Assembly (NCBI RefSeq): GCF_037975235.1
Contig: NZ_CP150241.1
Span: forward strand, 4,650,001 to 4,714,000
DNA from: Paenibacillus sp. FSL R5-0341
GTDB lineage: Bacteria > Bacillota > Bacilli > Paenibacillales > Paenibacillaceae
Reading direction: 5' to 3'
Length of the DNA stretch: 64,000 nucleotides
The notes beneath the pieces were generated by a model, which saw nothing but the letters and a program-made list of their open reading frames with translations, was not told the origin of the DNA and did not search any database. Both the position numbers and the translations under genes were made by a program. Positions 49,328-55,880 of the stretch are shown one piece after another (the first letter of the stretch is position 1; each line of letters begins with the position of its first letter).

Positions 49328-50935
49328 TTAGACATTCTCCACCAACTTAACGATCTCGTCCAATTGCCCATCGACCGCCAGCGGTGTGTACATCCACCAT
49401 TTGTCGTAGGATACCTTATGCACGTTTCTATTCCGAACAGCATTCAAGCTCCTCCATACTTCCGAACGACACAGTTTGCGAAAGGCGGCTTCGGCACGCG
49501 GGTTTTGCCCATTGACCATGATAAACAATCGATCCGCGTCATAATGACAGAGTTCTTCGAATGGAAGCTTTTCCGAGAAAGCGTTATGACCATTATAGTC
49601 ATTAATGAATTGCTGCACGAGCGGATGAGGCTTCAATTGAAGAGAGCGGTACAGCACATGCCCCATGTTCCGGTCACCTGCCACGCGAAAGCCCGTATCA
49701 TCGATCACCAGTGCCGCATACGTATCTTGCAGTCCGATAGTGGAACAGAGTCGCTCCTTTGTCTGGGCAACCTTAAGCTGATGTTGTTCCATCCACTCTC
49801 TGCTTCTCTTACGTTTGTTAACAACGGCAGATACACTGTCTAACTGTTGGTATACGTCCTGAGATTGCCAGGGGATACGTACCACCTCGGCGATCGTGGA
49901 AAATTGTTCGTATTCCCCTGTCGTCATATGCTCATATCCCAAAATAAGATCTGGCTCCATTTCGCGAATCGCCTCAAGATCGTATGGTGCCCATACAAAC
50001 GGTTTCATCTCAGGCAAATACGGACGAACGTACTCGTTGCGGAATAAATGATAATCCGGTGCTCCGATCGGCGTCATGCCAAGTGCAAGCAAATGGGAGG
50101 TAAACAGCAGACCGATAACACGCGGCTCATGTTTCTTGATATAGACGCTGGGAGATACGCCTTCTTGCTGTTTGAACCTTCGGCTGAAATAAAACTCGTC
50201 CTTGAATCCAACCTGTGTGGCAATAGAGTGCATGTCCCGGCTTGATGATCTCAGCAAACGTTTCGCATGGTCGACTCGCACACGATGCAAATAATCCATT
50301 GGGCTTGTTCCTGTTACCTGCCTGAAAATATGGCTATACTGCCTCGTGCCAACGCAGGCGATAGCAGCCAACTCCCCCACCTTCCAATTGTGCTGGTAAT
50401 TTTCCTCCATATGAGTGATGGTCCGCAGCACAGCCTCCTTGGTACTCGCCGGCTGATTCGCACAAGCCTTGACCGCAAAGTGAAAAACCGCTTCTTGCAG
50501 TAAAATTTCCCGCCTAAAGCGGCTCATCCCCATATCGGTCGTCCGTAGCTCAGCAATTTGATCGAGTAGTTCCATCAGATTGGCCAACGGCTGAATTGCA
50601 ACCACTCGGTTTCCGATCATTGCCAGTGGATGTTCCTCTGGTTCTCCTTGCCAGTCGGCATCAAACTCTAGCTTATGCCCGTGCACGATATGTCCAGGCT
50701 GATGCTCCCACTCCAAGATCGTACCGGGGAGAACCAGAATACTGCTGCTTGGAACGATTGTAAGGCGTTGTCCGTCCAAAACGGCAACGCCTTCTCCCTC
50801 ATCAATGACCCATAGTTCATAATTGTCGGGTGCAAACATCGTGTGTTCTATACCCGAATGAAACGTATATACATCAAGCCCAATCCAACGTAATCGTACG
50901 TTATCCATGGGCAAATCGAAGTTCTGCCACTCCAC
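49328..50935 (-). CDS. AraC regulator with C-terminal siderophore-binding domain (Btr-like)
   Basis: 535 residues: cupin-type N-terminal domain (about 15-110), AraC double HTH (about 165-270; GTSPMDYLHRVRVDHAKRLL, SIATQVGFKDEFYFSRRFK) and a FecB/BtuF-like binding domain (about 275-535; LLFTSHLLALGMTPIGAPDY, EMEPDLILGYEHM, KWWMYTPLAVDGQLDEI). There is no signal or membrane helix, so it binds imported ferric siderophore inside the cell like Bacillus Btr. GTG start with AAAGGTG; Fur box upstream. It probably activates the neighbouring iron genes. Confidence 0.88.
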   Translation of the reverse strand: MEWQNFDLPMDNVRLRWIGLDVYTFHSGIEHTMFAPDNYELWVIDEGEGVAVLDGQRLTIVPSSSILVLPGTILEWEHQPGHIVHGHKLEFDADWQGEPEEHPLAMIGNRVVAIQPLANLMELLDQIAELRTTDMGMSRFRREILLQEAVFHFAVKACANQPASTKEAVLRTITHMEENYQHNWKVGELAAIACVGTRQYSHIFRQVTGTSPMDYLHRVRVDHAKRLLRSSSRDMHSIATQVGFKDEFYFSRRFKQQEGVSPSVYIKKHEPRVIGLLFTSHLLALGMTPIGAPDYHLFRNEYVRPYLPEMKPFVWAPYDLEAIREMEPDLILGYEHMTTGEYEQFSTIAEVVRIPWQSQDVYQQLDSVSAVVNKRKRSREWMEQHQLKVAQTKERLCSTIGLQDTYAALVIDDTGFRVAGDRNMGHVLYRSLQLKPHPLVQQFINDYNGHNAFSEKLPFEELCHYDADRLFIMVNGQNPRAEAAFRKLCRSEVWRSLNAVRNRNVHKVSYDKWWMYTPLAVDGQLDEIVKLVENV

Positions 50936-51048: not shown

Positions 51049-52083
51049 TTATTGATTATGTTGTTTGAACAATTCCACGGCTTCATCCAGCAGAGCATCC
51101 GTGGAGAATAACGTGTAAGACCACCATTTGTCATGTGGCACAATGAAGACGTTGCCGTTTTTGACCGCAGGGAGGTTTTCCCACAGGCTCGATTCCTGCA
51201 TTTTTTCATAAAATTCCGTCGAACCCGGTTGGGTATCATTGACCTTAATGATCAAATAATCCGCGGTAAGCTCCGGCAATTTCTCCAGTGACTGCGGCTC
51301 CGTGTACACGACGAATCCATCGCTTTTATCAACCTCTTCCTGAACCCATGGCATGCGCTTTAATCCAAGCAGATCGTGCAATACATACCCCATGTTTCGG
51401 CTACCTGCTACTTGGAAGGAATCCTTGAAGATTTCTACAGCCGCTACTGTCTCGTCTGCTCCAACAAGATTGCTCATTTCAGCTTTGCGTTCTACTACTT
51501 TGGTTTCATGTTTCGTGATCCATTCTTCTGCTTCCGCTTTTTTACCCACGATATCGCCAATGTATCTCAGTTGATCGTATAGATTGTCTTCCCATGGATA
51601 GATAATCGTCGGAGCGATTTTCTCCAGTTGCTCGATTATATCCGCTTCGACAAAGGAAGAAGCGATAATTAGATCAGGCTGAAGTGATGCCACTGCTTCC
51701 ATATTAGGTGGATAGTCTCCGGCAATTTCAACTTCGCTGGCAGCATTTTTTAGATAATAATCCTGTTCGATTTCATATTGAAGTCCACCTACTGGCGTAA
51801 TGCCCAGAGCCAACAGTTGCGTTGTTGCACTGATGGAAAAAATGCGCTGCGGTGTCACGGGAATCTCTTTTGTTCCGGTAGGATCCGTGAAAGATTTCGT
51901 TTGTGAAGCGTTGGCGGATGCCGCCTCTTCCTGACTCGCAGTTCCTGCGTCCGTTGATAATGAAGCTGTCTGACTTCCGGTGGAAGAACCGCTATCGGCC
52001 TGTGTGCCACATCCCGCCATAATAAGGACCATCAGTAATATCATTGCTGCAGACATCATGCTATAGGTACCTCTTCGTTTCAT
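51049..52083 (-). CDS. Iron-siderophore substrate-binding lipoprotein (orphan)
   Basis: 344 residues. Lipobox LIMAGCGTQ, Ser/Thr-rich linker, FecB-type fold (RIFSISATTQLLALGITPVGG, LQPDLIIASSF, DKWWSYTLFSTDALLDEAVEL). It resembles the binding half of the Btr-like protein next door, for example SRNMGYVLHDLLGLK against DRNMGHVLYRSLQLK. No permease or ATPase adjoins it; it may use the FecCD system at 19.9-21.8 kb or one outside the window. Fur box upstream. Confidence 0.9.
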   Translation of the reverse strand: MKRRGTYSMMSAAMILLMVLIMAGCGTQADSGSSTGSQTASLSTDAGTASQEEAASANASQTKSFTDPTGTKEIPVTPQRIFSISATTQLLALGITPVGGLQYEIEQDYYLKNAASEVEIAGDYPPNMEAVASLQPDLIIASSFVEADIIEQLEKIAPTIIYPWEDNLYDQLRYIGDIVGKKAEAEEWITKHETKVVERKAEMSNLVGADETVAAVEIFKDSFQVAGSRNMGYVLHDLLGLKRMPWVQEEVDKSDGFVVYTEPQSLEKLPELTADYLIIKVNDTQPGSTEFYEKMQESSLWENLPAVKNGNVFIVPHDKWWSYTLFSTDALLDEAVELFKQHNQ

Positions 52084-52117: not shown

Positions 52118-52132
52118 TGAGAATCAATATCA
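52118..52132. promoter_or_regulatory. Fur box upstream of the orphan lipoprotein
   Basis: TGAGAATCAATATCA matches 13 of 15 Fur consensus positions, 34 bases before the minus-strand ATG. It could also reach the plus-strand AraC fusion. Confidence 0.8.
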
Positions 52133-52376
52133 CTTAGAATAGAATACCGGACAGTCCTCTACTTTGCACATGGAGAATTCGGCGATTTTCTTTAGATCAT
52201 TGAGAGGTCAAGACATCAAACATTTTTCGTCTTTATACTCGACAGTTATAAGAAGAATCCGGTGCTACCGAGGAAACGTTTTGGAAAGTGACAAAAAGCC
52301 ACTAATATTATTATATAATAACCTCACCACATATAAGGCTGGCTTCAGCAGCTCATGGAAGGAAGACAACTCTCTA

Positions 52377-54338
52377 TTGAAAGCAACCTTGAATGTACAA
52401 GAGCACATACTCATCTGGAATTGTGCATCGCTCAAAATCATGGATGTACGACATATTGTCATACAAGCCGACGAGTGCGTACGTCCTTACCTGTTCCCTG
52501 CCAGCGCCTTTCTGTACGTAACGCATGGCAGTGCAACTGTGATTTTGGACGGAAATGAGCATGCTACCAAACCATTCTATATGCTTCATGGGGGCAAAAA
52601 CACCCGTCTGGACATCATGCCAACGGACGAATCCTTTCATTATTACCTAATTTTCTATAAAGCCTCCTTCCCGCTACCTGGCAAGCAGCATACACTTCAA
52701 CAACCAGATCAACCATTGCCCTTCCACCTCCAGTACGGTTTTATTCCATACCATCCTGCCATCCTCTACGAAATCGCTGAGCGTATGCTGGGCGAATGGA
52801 ATAGACCGGGACGCTTGGAGCGGCTCCATACCAAAACACTATTCTATCAATTTGTATATGAATTGCTCAGGCAAATGGATCAACAGCAGGTCAGCATTGT
52901 TAGACCTAACCTTGCTTCTCAGCTTATTCGCTATATGCAGGAGCACTACGCCCAGCCGCTGACGCGGAAAACACTCGCGCATACATTCCATTACAGCGTC
53001 CCTTATCTGTCCAAGTACTTCCGACGTGAAACTGGCGCAAGTATAATCGATTACTTAATCGGTATTAGGATGAACAAAGCAGGAACGCTGCTGCAAAAGA
53101 CCGAGTTATCGCTGCAAGAGGTCGCTGCAAGCGTCGGATATGGTGATGTATCCTATTTTATAAGAATGTTCAAAAAGCATACGGGAGTCACACCAAAGCA
53201 ATTCAAGGATGAGTCCGGACAAGTGGCGAGAGGTTCTTATCGTCCTATTCTTAGGCTTCGATCATCCATTGCTCCGCGTAAACTCCGTCGTTATATTGAT
53301 ATCAGAGATGATAATCATTATCAATATAGCGAAAAAGGAGATTTACGGATGTATAGAAGCAAACTACCTGTAGGAATTACCCTGCTGTTGTGCCTAACTC
53401 TATTGGTTAGCGCATGTTCCAGACCAGCAAACACGAATGGAAGCACTGGCAGTACGCAGAGTCCAACTGTAGGTGCAGAGAGTAATATCAGTAACACAAC
53501 AACCGGCAGCTCGGAGATGGTAACCTATTCTGCGGTTAACGGTGAAGTACAAATCCTAAAAAAACCTCAAAGGGTCGTAATGGTGGCAGGAGCCTTTACC
53601 GGTCATTTGCTAGCGCTGGGCCTTAAGCCTGTTGGAACTGGTGATGAGTCCTTTAACAGTTATACAGAAGGAAAGCTCGATGACGTTGTCAACATCGGTA
53701 ACGATGTACCCTACGAGAAAATCATGGAGTTACAGCCGGATTTAATTGTCGTTTGGAATGACCCTGAAACAATCGAAAAGCTGTCCAAAATTGCGCCGAC
53801 CGTCGCTGTTGAATATGGAGTACCTCTGCGGGAGCAATTGATGGATTTCGGCAAGATGACTGGTAGAGAAGAGCAAGCGAAGGCCTGGATCGCAGAGTGG
53901 GACGCTAAAATCACTGAGTACAAACCACTCGTGGAGCAAGCGGTAGGTGATCGCACTGTTTCGATTTTTGATACGGGAAGTGCCAAAGAATTTTATGCCT
54001 ACGGGAGCTTTGGTAGAGGTGGAGACATTATTTATGGCGAGTTCGGTCTGAAGGCACCGCCGATCATTCAGAAGGAAGCCATTGGTAGCGGCAAGGGATG
54101 GGCCAAGTTATCACTTGAATTGTTACCACAATACGCAGGAGATTATATCTTTATTAGTGGATGGACAGGTGATGAGAGTGGGGATTCCGTTTTTGAAGGT
54201 CCGATCTGGGATAACCTCCCTGCTGTCCAGAATAATCACGTTTATCGCGAGAACAGCCGTGGCTTCGTGTTTAGTGACCCGATTTCATTGGAAGCCCAAC
54301 TTAAATTTGTCGTAGACAGCCTAACCTTAACAGAGTGA
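52377..54338 (+). CDS. AraC regulator fused in frame to siderophore-binding lipoprotein domain
   Basis: One uninterrupted frame, about 653 residues from TTG 52377. Order: cupin-like sensor region, AraC double HTH (about 180-285; RKTLAHTFHYSVPYLSKYF, LQEVAASVGYGDVSYFIRMFK), basic linker with DDNHYQ, hydrophobic helix (PVGITLLLCLTLLVSAC) and FecB-type binding domain (about 375-653; HLLALGLKPVGTGDES, ELQPDLIVVWND). Read through, it would be a one-span receptor with DNA-binding part inside and binding domain outside. A perfect Fur box, RBS and ATG within the linker could also yield the lipoprotein alone. The start is uncertain: the frame opens at 52164 but lacks an RBS. Confidence 0.78.
   Translation: MKATLNVQEHILIWNCASLKIMDVRHIVIQADECVRPYLFPASAFLYVTHGSATVILDGNEHATKPFYMLHGGKNTRLDIMPTDESFHYYLIFYKASFPLPGKQHTLQQPDQPLPFHLQYGFIPYHPAILYEIAERMLGEWNRPGRLERLHTKTLFYQFVYELLRQMDQQQVSIVRPNLASQLIRYMQEHYAQPLTRKTLAHTFHYSVPYLSKYFRRETGASIIDYLIGIRMNKAGTLLQKTELSLQEVAASVGYGDVSYFIRMFKKHTGVTPKQFKDESGQVARGSYRPILRLRSSIAPRKLRRYIDIRDDNHYQYSEKGDLRMYRSKLPVGITLLLCLTLLVSACSRPANTNGSTGSTQSPTVGAESNISNTTTGSSEMVTYSAVNGEVQILKKPQRVVMVAGAFTGHLLALGLKPVGTGDESFNSYTEGKLDDVVNIGNDVPYEKIMELQPDLIVVWNDPETIEKLSKIAPTVAVEYGVPLREQLMDFGKMTGREEQAKAWIAEWDAKITEYKPLVEQAVGDRTVSIFDTGSAKEFYAYGSFGRGGDIIYGEFGLKAPPIIQKEAIGSGKGWAKLSLELLPQYAGDYIFISGWTGDESGDSVFEGPIWDNLPAVQNNHVYRENSRGFVFSDPISLEAQLKFVVDSLTLTE
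53309..53323. promoter_or_regulatory. Perfect Fur box inside the AraC-SBP reading frame
   Basis: TGATAATCATTATCA matches all 15 Fur consensus positions. It lies in the coding frame, translated as DNHYQ, and is followed 25 bases later by the internal ATG with AAAAAGGAG. It implies an iron-repressed internal promoter for the lipoprotein part. Confidence 0.9.
53349..54338 (+). CDS. Internal-start siderophore-binding lipoprotein of the fusion locus
   Basis: Same frame as the AraC fusion, beginning at ATG 53349 (residue 325 of the fusion) with AAAAAGGAG eight bases before it. The 329-residue product begins MYRSKLPVGITLLL, has lipobox LLVSACSRP, a Ser/Thr/Asn-rich linker and a complete FecB-type binding domain. 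It would be an ordinary ferric-siderophore-binding lipoprotein. Its own Fur box and RBS argue that this form is really made; whether the fusion is also made is the open question. Confidence 0.8.
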   Translation: MYRSKLPVGITLLLCLTLLVSACSRPANTNGSTGSTQSPTVGAESNISNTTTGSSEMVTYSAVNGEVQILKKPQRVVMVAGAFTGHLLALGLKPVGTGDESFNSYTEGKLDDVVNIGNDVPYEKIMELQPDLIVVWNDPETIEKLSKIAPTVAVEYGVPLREQLMDFGKMTGREEQAKAWIAEWDAKITEYKPLVEQAVGDRTVSIFDTGSAKEFYAYGSFGRGGDIIYGEFGLKAPPIIQKEAIGSGKGWAKLSLELLPQYAGDYIFISGWTGDESGDSVFEGPIWDNLPAVQNNHVYRENSRGFVFSDPISLEAQLKFVVDSLTLTE

Positions 54339-54360: not shown

Positions 54361-54390
54361 ACGAGGCGAGGAGCAATCCTCGTCTTTTTA
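54361..54390 (+). terminator. Terminator of the AraC-SBP locus
   Basis: ACGAGG and CCTCGT form the stem, followed by CTTTTTATGTTTTT. Confidence 0.75.
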
Positions 54391-54518: not shown

Positions 54519-55880
54519 TTAAGTGATGGTAAGACCGCCGCTTGCATATCCGGCTACGGTCGTAGCCACATCAATTCCGGCTGTTACTGATGCTGAGAAG
54601 ACCATAAGCAGGCGGTCACCGGCGGATACCGGAATACTCAGTCCCGTAGTCAAACCACTGGATATTGTGCCCAGCGCCAAAACGCCGGTCAGTGGAGGAG
54701 CCAAGGTTACCAATGCACCCGGTACAGCTGTAAAGGAGTTATTAGGTGCAGTGGAACGGAATAATTGTGCAGTTATAGTTACTGTAGATCCAACCAAGCT
54801 AAGTCCAGCTGTCGTGCTGAAATAACCGGCCAGTGAAGTAATCGTTCCTGCACGCGATGCGGAGAAAGCAAAGTTAAGCAACGTGCCCGCAGCGCCTGTG
54901 AGATCAATAATTCCTCCGTTCACACTTACTCCGGTAGCACTGTTGCCAAAACCAACTAAACTGGAAGTATTCAAAAGTCCACCCAAAACTGTAGTCAAAA
55001 CCACTGGAAGTCCGGATGCATAAGGAATGATTGCTCCAGAACCTGATGCACCTGTAGCTCCGGTTGAACCTGCTGTGCCTGTCGCCCCTGTTACACCCGT
55101 TGTACCTGGTGTTCCCGTTGCCCCAGTCACTCCCGTTGTACCTGGCGTGCCTGTTGCTCCTGTCACTCCCGTTGTACCTGGCGTGCCTGTCGCCCCAGTC
55201 ACTCCCGTTGTACCTGGCGTGCCTGTCGCCCCTGTTACACCCGTTGTACCTGGCGTGCCTGTCGCCCCAGTTACTCCCGTTGTACCTGGTGTGCCTGTTG
55301 CTCCGGTTACTCCCGTTGTACCCGGTGTGCCTGTTGCTCCGGTTACTCCCGTTGTACCCGGTGTGCCTGTTGCTCCGGTTACTCCCGCTGTACCCGGTGT
55401 GCCTGTTGCTCCTGTTACTCCCGTTGTACCCGGTGTGCCTGTTGCTCCGGTTACTCCCGCTGTACCTGGCGTGCCTGTCGCTCCCGTAGTTCCGGTTGCG
55501 CCTGTGGCTCCGGTGATGCTTGGGGTTTCACCCAGCAGTTCGGAAGAAACCAAACGATGGGCTGTTACCAAAACGCCTGTGCTGCTCTTACCCCATACGG
55601 ATACTTGAACAGGATCATTAACCGTCGCTGGTGTTGTAAAAGTAAACTCAAAGGCATCAAAATTGGCATAATAATTGTTGGTTATGACTTGATTGGGTGT
55701 GATGTCAAGAGACTCACTGACATACAAAACTCTTATTCCACCATCCAGGTAATACCCTTGTATTTGTACGGTTGAGGCTGTCACATCACTGCGGTTATCT
55801 ATTCTGACGGTAACTGTCTGAGTCGGTCTTACACCGCTAACAGCATTATTTTCTATCGGCCCGGTTGATAAAAAGCTCAT
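54519..55880 (-). CDS. Collagen-repeat spore-surface protein, BclB-like
   Basis: 453 residues. N-terminal beta domain (about 1-115; [19 protein letters not shown]) shared with the neighbouring 119-residue protein, a Gly-X-Y collagen region (about 122-284) dominated by the 12-residue unit [12 protein letters not shown], and a C-terminal hydrophobic domain (about 285-453; [22 protein letters not shown]) resembling the BclB C-terminal domain of exosporium glycoproteins. It should form trimeric, probably O-glycosylated fibres on the spore. AGGAG precedes the ATG. The repeat DNA is likely length-variable. Confidence 0.86.
55078..55473. repeat. 36-bp tandem repeat, 11 units, encoding collagen motif
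   Basis: Eleven consecutive 36-base units in phase with the protein; the unit encodes Gly-Thr-Pro-Gly-Thr-(Thr/Ala)-Gly-Val-Thr-Gly-Ala-Thr. Units differ mainly at third codon positions. Directly adjacent with no spacers, so it is a minisatellite, not CRISPR. Confidence 0.92.

Follow-up and report, generated by a model that had tools for sequence, protein, structure and literature searches.

A Paenibacillus gene joining an AraC-type regulator to a siderophore-binding lipoprotein, with a putative promoter region inside its coding frame

Btr (YbbB) of Bacillus subtilis is an AraC-type one-component regulator that senses a ferric siderophore and activates the gene of a substrate-binding protein (SBP). 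Btr is soluble and works as a fused protein, and its target lipoprotein gene or operon is separate. Here we describe a gene of Paenibacillus sp. FSL R5-0341, located on the plus strand at positions 52377–54338 of a 64,000-nucleotide stretch of contig NZ_CP150241.1 (the whole stretch analysed, called the window below), in which an AraC-type regulator and a siderophore-binding lipoprotein share one frame. Like Btr, its product has an N-terminal domain, an AraC helix-turn-helix (HTH) domain, and a Peripla_BP_2 domain in the same order in one chain. Unlike Btr, it carries a lipoprotein signal, a Fur box, a candidate promoter, and an operator-like repeat in frame between these domains, and its likely target promoter lies inside the regulator's own gene.

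Two other kinds of protein are comparable. In ToxR, CadC, and TcpP the DNA-binding part comes first, followed by one hydrophobic segment and a sensor outside the cell, and by sequence our protein has the same order of DNA-binding domain, hydrophobic segment, and extracytoplasmic-type sensor. It differs in having an AraC HTH instead of a winged helix; its segment is a lipoprotein signal with a lipobox, and its sensor is an SBP of the transport type, probably produced as a free protein as well. With the FhuD-type ferric-hydroxamate lipoproteins it shares the SBP domain (of FhuD fold), the Fur box, and the lipobox, but here the SBP is the 3′ half of a regulator frame and not a gene of its own. 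The NCBIfam model of Btr (NF049932) matches our protein at residues 140–276 only (77.3 bits, against a cut-off of 900). Whereas the SBP of the Btr type is cytoplasmic, with no signal between HTH and SBP, a signal and lipobox occupy this place in our protein and in 93 of 100 relatives.

According to Table 1 of PMC13293324, 229 of 6,023 Peripla_BP_2 genes in siderophore clusters encode a second domain, which is HTH_18 in 98.7 per cent of the 229. The sections consulted draw no line between soluble and lipobox-bearing forms and mention no inner promoter or start. The open PubMed Central literature, to which our search was confined (subscription journals being outside its scope), yielded no description of a lipobox-bearing AraC-SBP protein or of an inner Fur start. 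The Btr-type AraC-SBP chain is known; the candidate promoter and operator-like repeat overwritten on a coding linker appear to be new.

The features of the gene are as follows.

52357–52365, plus strand: ribosome-binding site of the long product, GGAAGGAAG (from sequence)
52377–54338, plus strand: whole fused frame (AraC part, linker, lipoprotein signal, FhuD-type SBP), 653 amino acids, TTG start
52377–52892, plus strand: N-terminal domain of the AraC part, beta-strand and helical, residues 1–172 (AlphaFold2 model)
52911–53234, plus strand: AraC-type DNA-binding domain with two HTH, residues 179–286 (Pfam HTH_18/HTH_AraC; model)
53239–53248, plus strand: distal half-site ATCGTCCTAT of the operator-like direct repeat (consensus ATNNTCCATT, 2 mismatches)
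53261–53270, plus strand: proximal half-site ATCATCCATT, 22 bp from the distal one and overlapping the −35 element
53269–53274, plus strand: candidate inner promoter, −35 element TTGCTC (conserved in linkers; absent from the consensus-scan list)
53292–53297, plus strand: candidate inner promoter, −10 element TATATT, 17-bp spacer
53309–53323, plus strand: Fur box TGATAATCATTATCA, 14/14 specified positions, read GAT-AAT-CAT-TAT in the fused frame
53335–53340, plus strand: Shine-Dalgarno (SD) sequence AAGGAG of the inner start
53349–54338, plus strand: nested lipoprotein frame from the inner ATG, precursor of 329 amino acids
53349–53417, plus strand: lipoprotein signal plus lipobox LVSAC (Cys347), which may span the membrane in the long product
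53514–54329, plus strand: FhuD-type siderophore-binding domain, residues 380–651 (sequence and fold matches)
54363–54386, plus strand: terminator-like hairpin 3′ of the gene (the scan gave 6 such sites, 2.0 expected)

From the TTG (52377–52379) to the TGA (54336–54338) the 653 codons contain no internal stop, so that the initial annotation, which had described an AraC regulator and a siderophore-binding lipoprotein in one uninterrupted frame, was correct. It was equally right about a perfect 15-bp Fur box in the linker, scored here against TGATAATNATTATCA, which we take to be the Fur consensus, and about an inner ribosome-binding site and ATG; this ATG, at 53349, is in frame with the AraC part as residue 325. 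The lipobox cysteine is encoded by TGT at 53415–53417. Pfam recognizes HTH_18 at residues 200–277 and Peripla_BP_2 at 400–624, and the N-terminal domain matches no Pfam family at E 0.001. By sequence, the SBP domain matches structures 3hxp (E 9.5e-77) and 3g9q (E 1.9e-74); 3hxp also ranks first in the fold search (TM-score 0.92 by target length, 47 per cent identity), and the closest SBP relative is BSU3320, of the FhuD fold. Both halves are well folded in an AlphaFold2 model (81 sequences; mean predicted local distance difference test score 83), separated by a disordered linker (285–331), a helix (332–346), and a second disordered stretch (348–378); at a predicted TM-score of 0.47, the relative placement of the halves in the model carries no meaning.

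The reading that we favour, with somewhat better than even confidence, is a dual-product siderophore switch in one frame, whose regulator acts on a promoter inside its own gene. The frame and its conservation are observed, as is the conservation, as DNA, of the inner promoter, Fur box, start, and repeat; the two products, AraC binding and activation at the repeat, the role as membrane sensor, and the ligand are what we infer from them. An outer promoter would give the long protein, with a cytoplasmic AraC part, a short membrane segment, and the FhuD-type domain outside. A second promoter, written within the coding sequence of the linker, would comprise an AraC operator over the −35 element, the 17-bp spacer, the −10 element, the Fur box, the SD sequence, and the start. 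At low iron Fur would leave its box; a ferric siderophore, probably a hydroxamate to judge by homology, would bind the outer domain, and the AraC part would then activate the inner promoter. This would produce much free lipoprotein, which would deliver its ligand to an ABC permease whose genes lie elsewhere. We have little doubt that the long protein is made, and just as little about the short lipoprotein. The two-product interpretation of the initial annotation is supported in part, by the conservation of the fused frame and of the inner Fur-controlled start, but it had missed the inner promoter and the operator-like repeat. The −35 and −10 elements, the 22-bp repeat, five intact paralogues, and a frame-broken second copy in the window all go beyond it.

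The initial annotation had proposed a search for homologous long AraC-SBP frames. Such a protein search gave 214 relatives, and among the 120 matches listed, 115 are 600–690 amino acids long; the genera include Paenibacillus, Cohnella, Lysinibacillus, Sporosarcina, Psychrobacillus, and Gottschalkia. Because its length limits make a full-protein search blind to split pairs, we ran a second search against 59 genomes, including the host's own, in which residues 1–285 (the AraC part) were the only query and up to 41 candidates were scored per genome. This query returned 100 matches in 30 genomes, all of one genus, and DNA was fetched for all 100. In 93 the frame is open through the linker into the lipobox, and 91 of these have the SBP (it is broken or truncated in L115 and L133). 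Five more are fused without a lipobox (L164–L166, L173, L175), and two are broken before the lipoprotein: L032, with one frame shift just after the HTH and a second near the end of the SBP, and L107, a decayed copy that has lost the signal and promoter. A stop codon or frame break between the halves of most orthologues, which the initial annotation had named as the outcome that would speak against it, is therefore not what the relatives present (2 of 100). Nineteen named loci also have long matches, five of them identical with AraC-query loci; two are frame-shifted, L055 within the SBP and L056 in the linker.

In a sample of 398 Bacilli genomes, with at most 6 candidates scored per genome, 43 have matches, in five families (f1, f32, f13, f21, f29). 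The frame is open for at least 588 amino acids in 126 of 132 rows, a count by length only that takes in forms without a lipobox; eight rows have 588–593 amino acids, one of which, L175, was read at the DNA level. The six shorter rows are L107, L115, and L133 of the host genome plus L238–L240; the last three are open from the HTH through the lipobox and broken elsewhere, and L115 and L133 are likewise open there. DNA was fetched for 30 loci of this sample, of which 28 have a lipobox and L219 and L220 do not. A query from Gottschalkia found matches at 1e-25 in 5 of 398 Bacillota genomes, which indicates a family mainly of Bacilli.

The comparisons below use 105 lipobox-bearing loci: 91 of the 93 AraC-query matches (L172 was missed by the lipobox pattern, and L113 is identical with L060) and 14 named loci, with identical copies (L044, L053, L059, L061, L113) dropped. 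The best 15-mer of the linker matches the Fur consensus at 12 or more of 14 positions in 99 of them (49 loci score 14, 46 score 13, 4 score 12, and 6 score 11), whereas a 430-bp control stretch from the SBP of each gene never attains 12 (0 of 105). All 99 boxes stand in a single, stop-free codon phase, xxT-GAT-AAT-NAT-TAT-CA; in another phase the first six bases would read TGA TAA. Of the 28 lipobox loci from the wider Bacilli fetch, 22 carry a Fur box scoring 12/14 or better and six score 11 (five of these from family f32), and in all 28 the best box stands in that same phase. The residue at the inner start is mostly M, with V or L in some loci; five of the latter were checked and have GTG (L050, L123) or TTG (L130, L147, L148). 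Of the best SD-plus-start candidates, one per locus, 89/105 are in frame.

Two separate genes that lack a stop codon by chance, the fused product being incidental, could also account for a linker whose many DNA elements contain few stops in the fused phase. We consider this very improbable. In 84 linkers, measurable after 21 of the 105 loci were dropped for want of the HTH-end pattern, the absence of fused-frame stops is by construction, as loci were chosen for an in-frame lipobox, and the unbiased count of open frames is that of the 100 AraC-query matches. The two alternative frames, by contrast, are full of stops (+1 in 77/84 linkers, 224 stops; +2 in 84/84, 494 stops). Distances from the HTH to the Fur box take ten values and those from the Fur box to the cysteine six, all equal modulo 3; insertions and deletions have thus preserved the frame to either side of the Fur box, a DNA element with no frame requirement of its own. 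The residues of the linker are weakly constrained, as chance fusion would predict: in five clades picked by hand, the ratio of nonsynonymous to synonymous polymorphism (pN/pS) is 0.59, 0.56, 0.77, 0.72, and 0.48, with a 95 per cent interval below 1 in three, compared with 0.07–0.17 for the HTH and 0.05–0.12 for the SBP in the same clades. Of the two linker properties that the initial annotation had asked about, the stop-free frame proved conserved (93/100 into the lipobox) and purifying selection proved only weak (0.48–0.77). Linker codons appear to be under weak purifying selection, with the frame kept more strictly than the residues, which suggests that the residues matter little and the unbroken chain matters.

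Among relatives, L056 (linker shift) and L032 (shift after the HTH) can be read as split pairs, but L032 has its second break near the SBP end and L056 comes from a metagenome assembly. The short rows L238–L240, L115, and L133 are open from HTH to lipobox, L107 lacks signal and promoter, and the forms without a lipobox are still fused, all of which speaks against an incidental fusion. So does L241 (G000 C1 3091200–3094000), a standalone FhuD-like lipoprotein of the host genome (44 per cent identical) with a Fur box of 13/14 and a similar Fur-box/start layout: it has in-frame stops just upstream, which indicates that the frame is not maintained in the absence of an attached regulator. L241 may be a fused gene minus its regulator or be close to the source of the fusion.

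Promoter tests covered 104 loci, L123 being excluded. Scored without spacer preference, the two elements of the best inner promoter stand 17 bp apart in 82 of 104 loci, compared with 12 per cent of 936 AraC-coding control windows and 35 per cent of synonymous shuffles, and the mean score is 9.4 in linkers versus 4.3 and 5.7, respectively. The values for the shuffles (35 per cent, 5.7) imply that part of the promoter signal comes with the peptide. In 32 non-redundant linkers (less than 75 per cent identical to one another), the 10-bp segment whose 3′ end is the −35 TTG and the segment 22 bp upstream of it have an identity of 0.575, compared with 0.15–0.32 at every other lag between 8 and 59 and at most 0.406 in 500 synonymous shuffles; single loci range from 2 to 10 matches of 10. 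The consensus of this repeat is ATNNTCCATT-N12-ATNNTCCATT, overlapping the −35 element. The two copies occupy the same pair of codon phases in 30/32 linkers, and their 22-bp offset, not being divisible by 3, puts them in different frames, so that it is DNA, not peptide, that is conserved. A peptide-level cause of the linker motif P....SSI..RYI..DNHYQ..GDL.M was for this reason rejected as the main one, and also because the blocks of the motif fall on the half-sites, −35, −10, Fur box, SD sequence, and start codon, and the synonymous rate of the linker is depressed.

The usual operator of the AraC family consists of direct repeats about two helical turns apart adjoining the −35 element, and the 22-bp repeat resembles it. 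With this putative operator, the linker looks like a whole promoter region inside a coding frame, which suggests that the target of the regulator is its own inner promoter; on this evidence, the AraC part quite probably acts on the repeat. Alternatively, the AraC part would regulate other genes and the repeat would be the site of another factor or a piece of the promoter, leaving the lipoprotein under Fur alone. We regard this as rather improbable, even though 11 of the 14 matches to the repeat in the host genome at up to 2 mismatches (2 for a reversed control pattern) lie outside linkers of the family and pyridine-nucleotide oxidoreductase genes stand near some paralogues. The only matches with 0–1 mismatch are the linkers of two paralogues, the form of the repeat is that of an AraC operator, and regions upstream of the genes are barely above controls: at least 12/16 positions match in 72/105 linkers (150 bp) but in 11/105 upstream regions and 3/105 controls (400 bp each). 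None of the upstream matches exceeds 13, and an operator-like repeat upstream of the gene was not accepted.

The long product might not persist in one piece. The hydrophobic stretch has 14–19 uncharged residues (median 17) in the 105 loci, which is the length of a lipoprotein signal, and with the lipobox intact LspA may cut the long product. It would then be a polyprotein, cleaved at Cys347 into the lipoprotein and an AraC protein with a hydrophobic tail, which might be freed by a site-2 protease; fusion would serve co-delivery, or insertion itself would be the signal, and there would be no lasting one-piece receptor. To this we give an appreciable but minor chance. The cysteine is invariant in 81 aligned proteins, and the linker and the stretch after the cysteine are disordered in the model. 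A nested lipoprotein, however, needs the cysteine and signal anyway, so their conservation does not discriminate, and Btr, of identical domain order, functions as a fusion. Moreover, L164–L166, L219, and L220, which lack lipobox and signal, keep AraC and SBP in one chain while nested among membrane forms, which implies that a fused chain is useful without a nested lipoprotein. In a tree of 71 proteins (62 membrane, 9 soluble; linker columns left out), L219 and L220 group beside the membrane form L221 (99 per cent support in the Shimodaira-Hasegawa-like approximate likelihood ratio test, SH-aLRT) and L164 and L166 beside L128, L153, L167, and L171 (96 per cent SH-aLRT). The tree requires at least four membrane/soluble changes, counting long-branched Btr-like rows of unsure place; L219 and L220 retain traces of the promoter region, and L220 also of the signal. 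We slightly favour a long product that remains intact and serves as a membrane sensor.

Several observations weigh against the dual-product switch. With its short hydrophobic stretch and intact lipobox the long product may be cleaved, and the median net charge on the inner side of the stretch is 0, so that the charge rule does not fix its orientation. When spacer preference is scored, only 23 per cent of the 104 loci exceed the 95th percentile of the shuffles, and a consensus scan does not list the inner promoter. At a lag of 22, L157, which stands for a group of 7 loci, matches at 2/10 positions only, and only 3 of the 6 intact membrane copies of the host genome match the repeat at up to 2 mismatches. 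The best SD-plus-start candidate is out of frame in 16/105 loci. The interval of linker pN/pS includes 1 in two of the five clades, and a close subset of the query clade gives 0.29 with an interval of 0 to 1.1. L056 has a single frame shift in the linker followed by a whole lipoprotein frame, which is either real or an assembly error. Finally, the outer promoter in the query's clade is not convincing: the consensus scan gives 3 promoter-like sites where 4.5 are expected, and the upstream Fur-like box of the query (52118–52132, 12/14) is 259 bp away, beside a divergent gene.

A broader version of the switch is more tentative, and we hold it somewhat less likely to be true than false: a loop in one frame, in which a membrane-spanning AraC receptor with operator and promoter in its own coding sequence would respond to a siderophore by mass-producing its free sensor domain, the cassette having multiplied for foreign siderophores and soluble forms having been derived repeatedly by loss of the signal.

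Among the relatives from the protein search, both AraC regulator and ABC substrate-binding protein occur as names. Should the favoured reading hold, hundreds of proteins so named would combine the two roles, and automatic annotation would conceal a further gene and its promoter within each such gene. The locus would then offer a one-gene model linking siderophore sensing to uptake, and an AraC receptor of ToxR-like type in a gram-positive bacterium. With promoter, operator, and repressor site overwritten on coding sequence, it would also allow constraints at the DNA level to be told apart from those at the protein level. How Paenibacillus, for which PMC13293324 reports about 29 siderophore SBP genes per siderophore cluster, keeps many siderophore receptors under separate control may in part be explained in this way.

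Iron control of the outer promoter appears to vary among loci. A Fur box of at least 12/14 lies within 400 bp upstream of the AraC start in 64/105 loci, and such a box was rejected as a general rule, the query clade being without a close one. The host is a Paenibacillus close to P. amylolyticus, its fused protein being 98 per cent identical to that of a named locus. Its genome (6.57 Mb, one contig) holds ten copies of the AraC domain at E 1e-30: six intact membrane forms (the query gene and five further fused paralogues), one fused form without a lipobox, and three decayed ones. The family seems to multiply and decay quickly. A second fused copy lies in the window itself, on the minus strand from 60870 to about 59205, with a Fur box and lipobox in its linker; it is frame-broken inside the binding domain and has intact relatives elsewhere, such as L206.

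The window also contains, on the minus strand, a soluble Btr-like AraC-SBP gene (49328–50935) directly downstream of a lipoprotein SBP gene (51049–52083) that is preceded by the Fur-like box at 52118–52132. The Btr-like protein matches NF049932 over residues 106–530 with 169.8 bits, also below the cut-off. Separate (Btr) and nested layouts are thus adjacent within the window.

No FecCD gene was found within 10 kb of any of the six intact membrane copies of the host genome, the nearest to the query being 13 kb downstream, and two FecCD genes follow a copy with a truncated SBP (G000 1473444–1475013). Near several SBP genes, at G000 C1 4717461–4719410, one open frame of 690 amino acids contains two FecCD domains, a fused permease pair. 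Pyridine nucleotide-disulphide oxidoreductase genes stand near three loci of the family in the host genome (L176, 6888–7925; L180, 10691–11701; L181, 13109–14140) and are possible ferric-siderophore reductases. Adjoining the fused gene, on the minus strand at 54519–55880, is a gene for a collagen-like repeat protein, presumably a BclA-like surface or spore protein.

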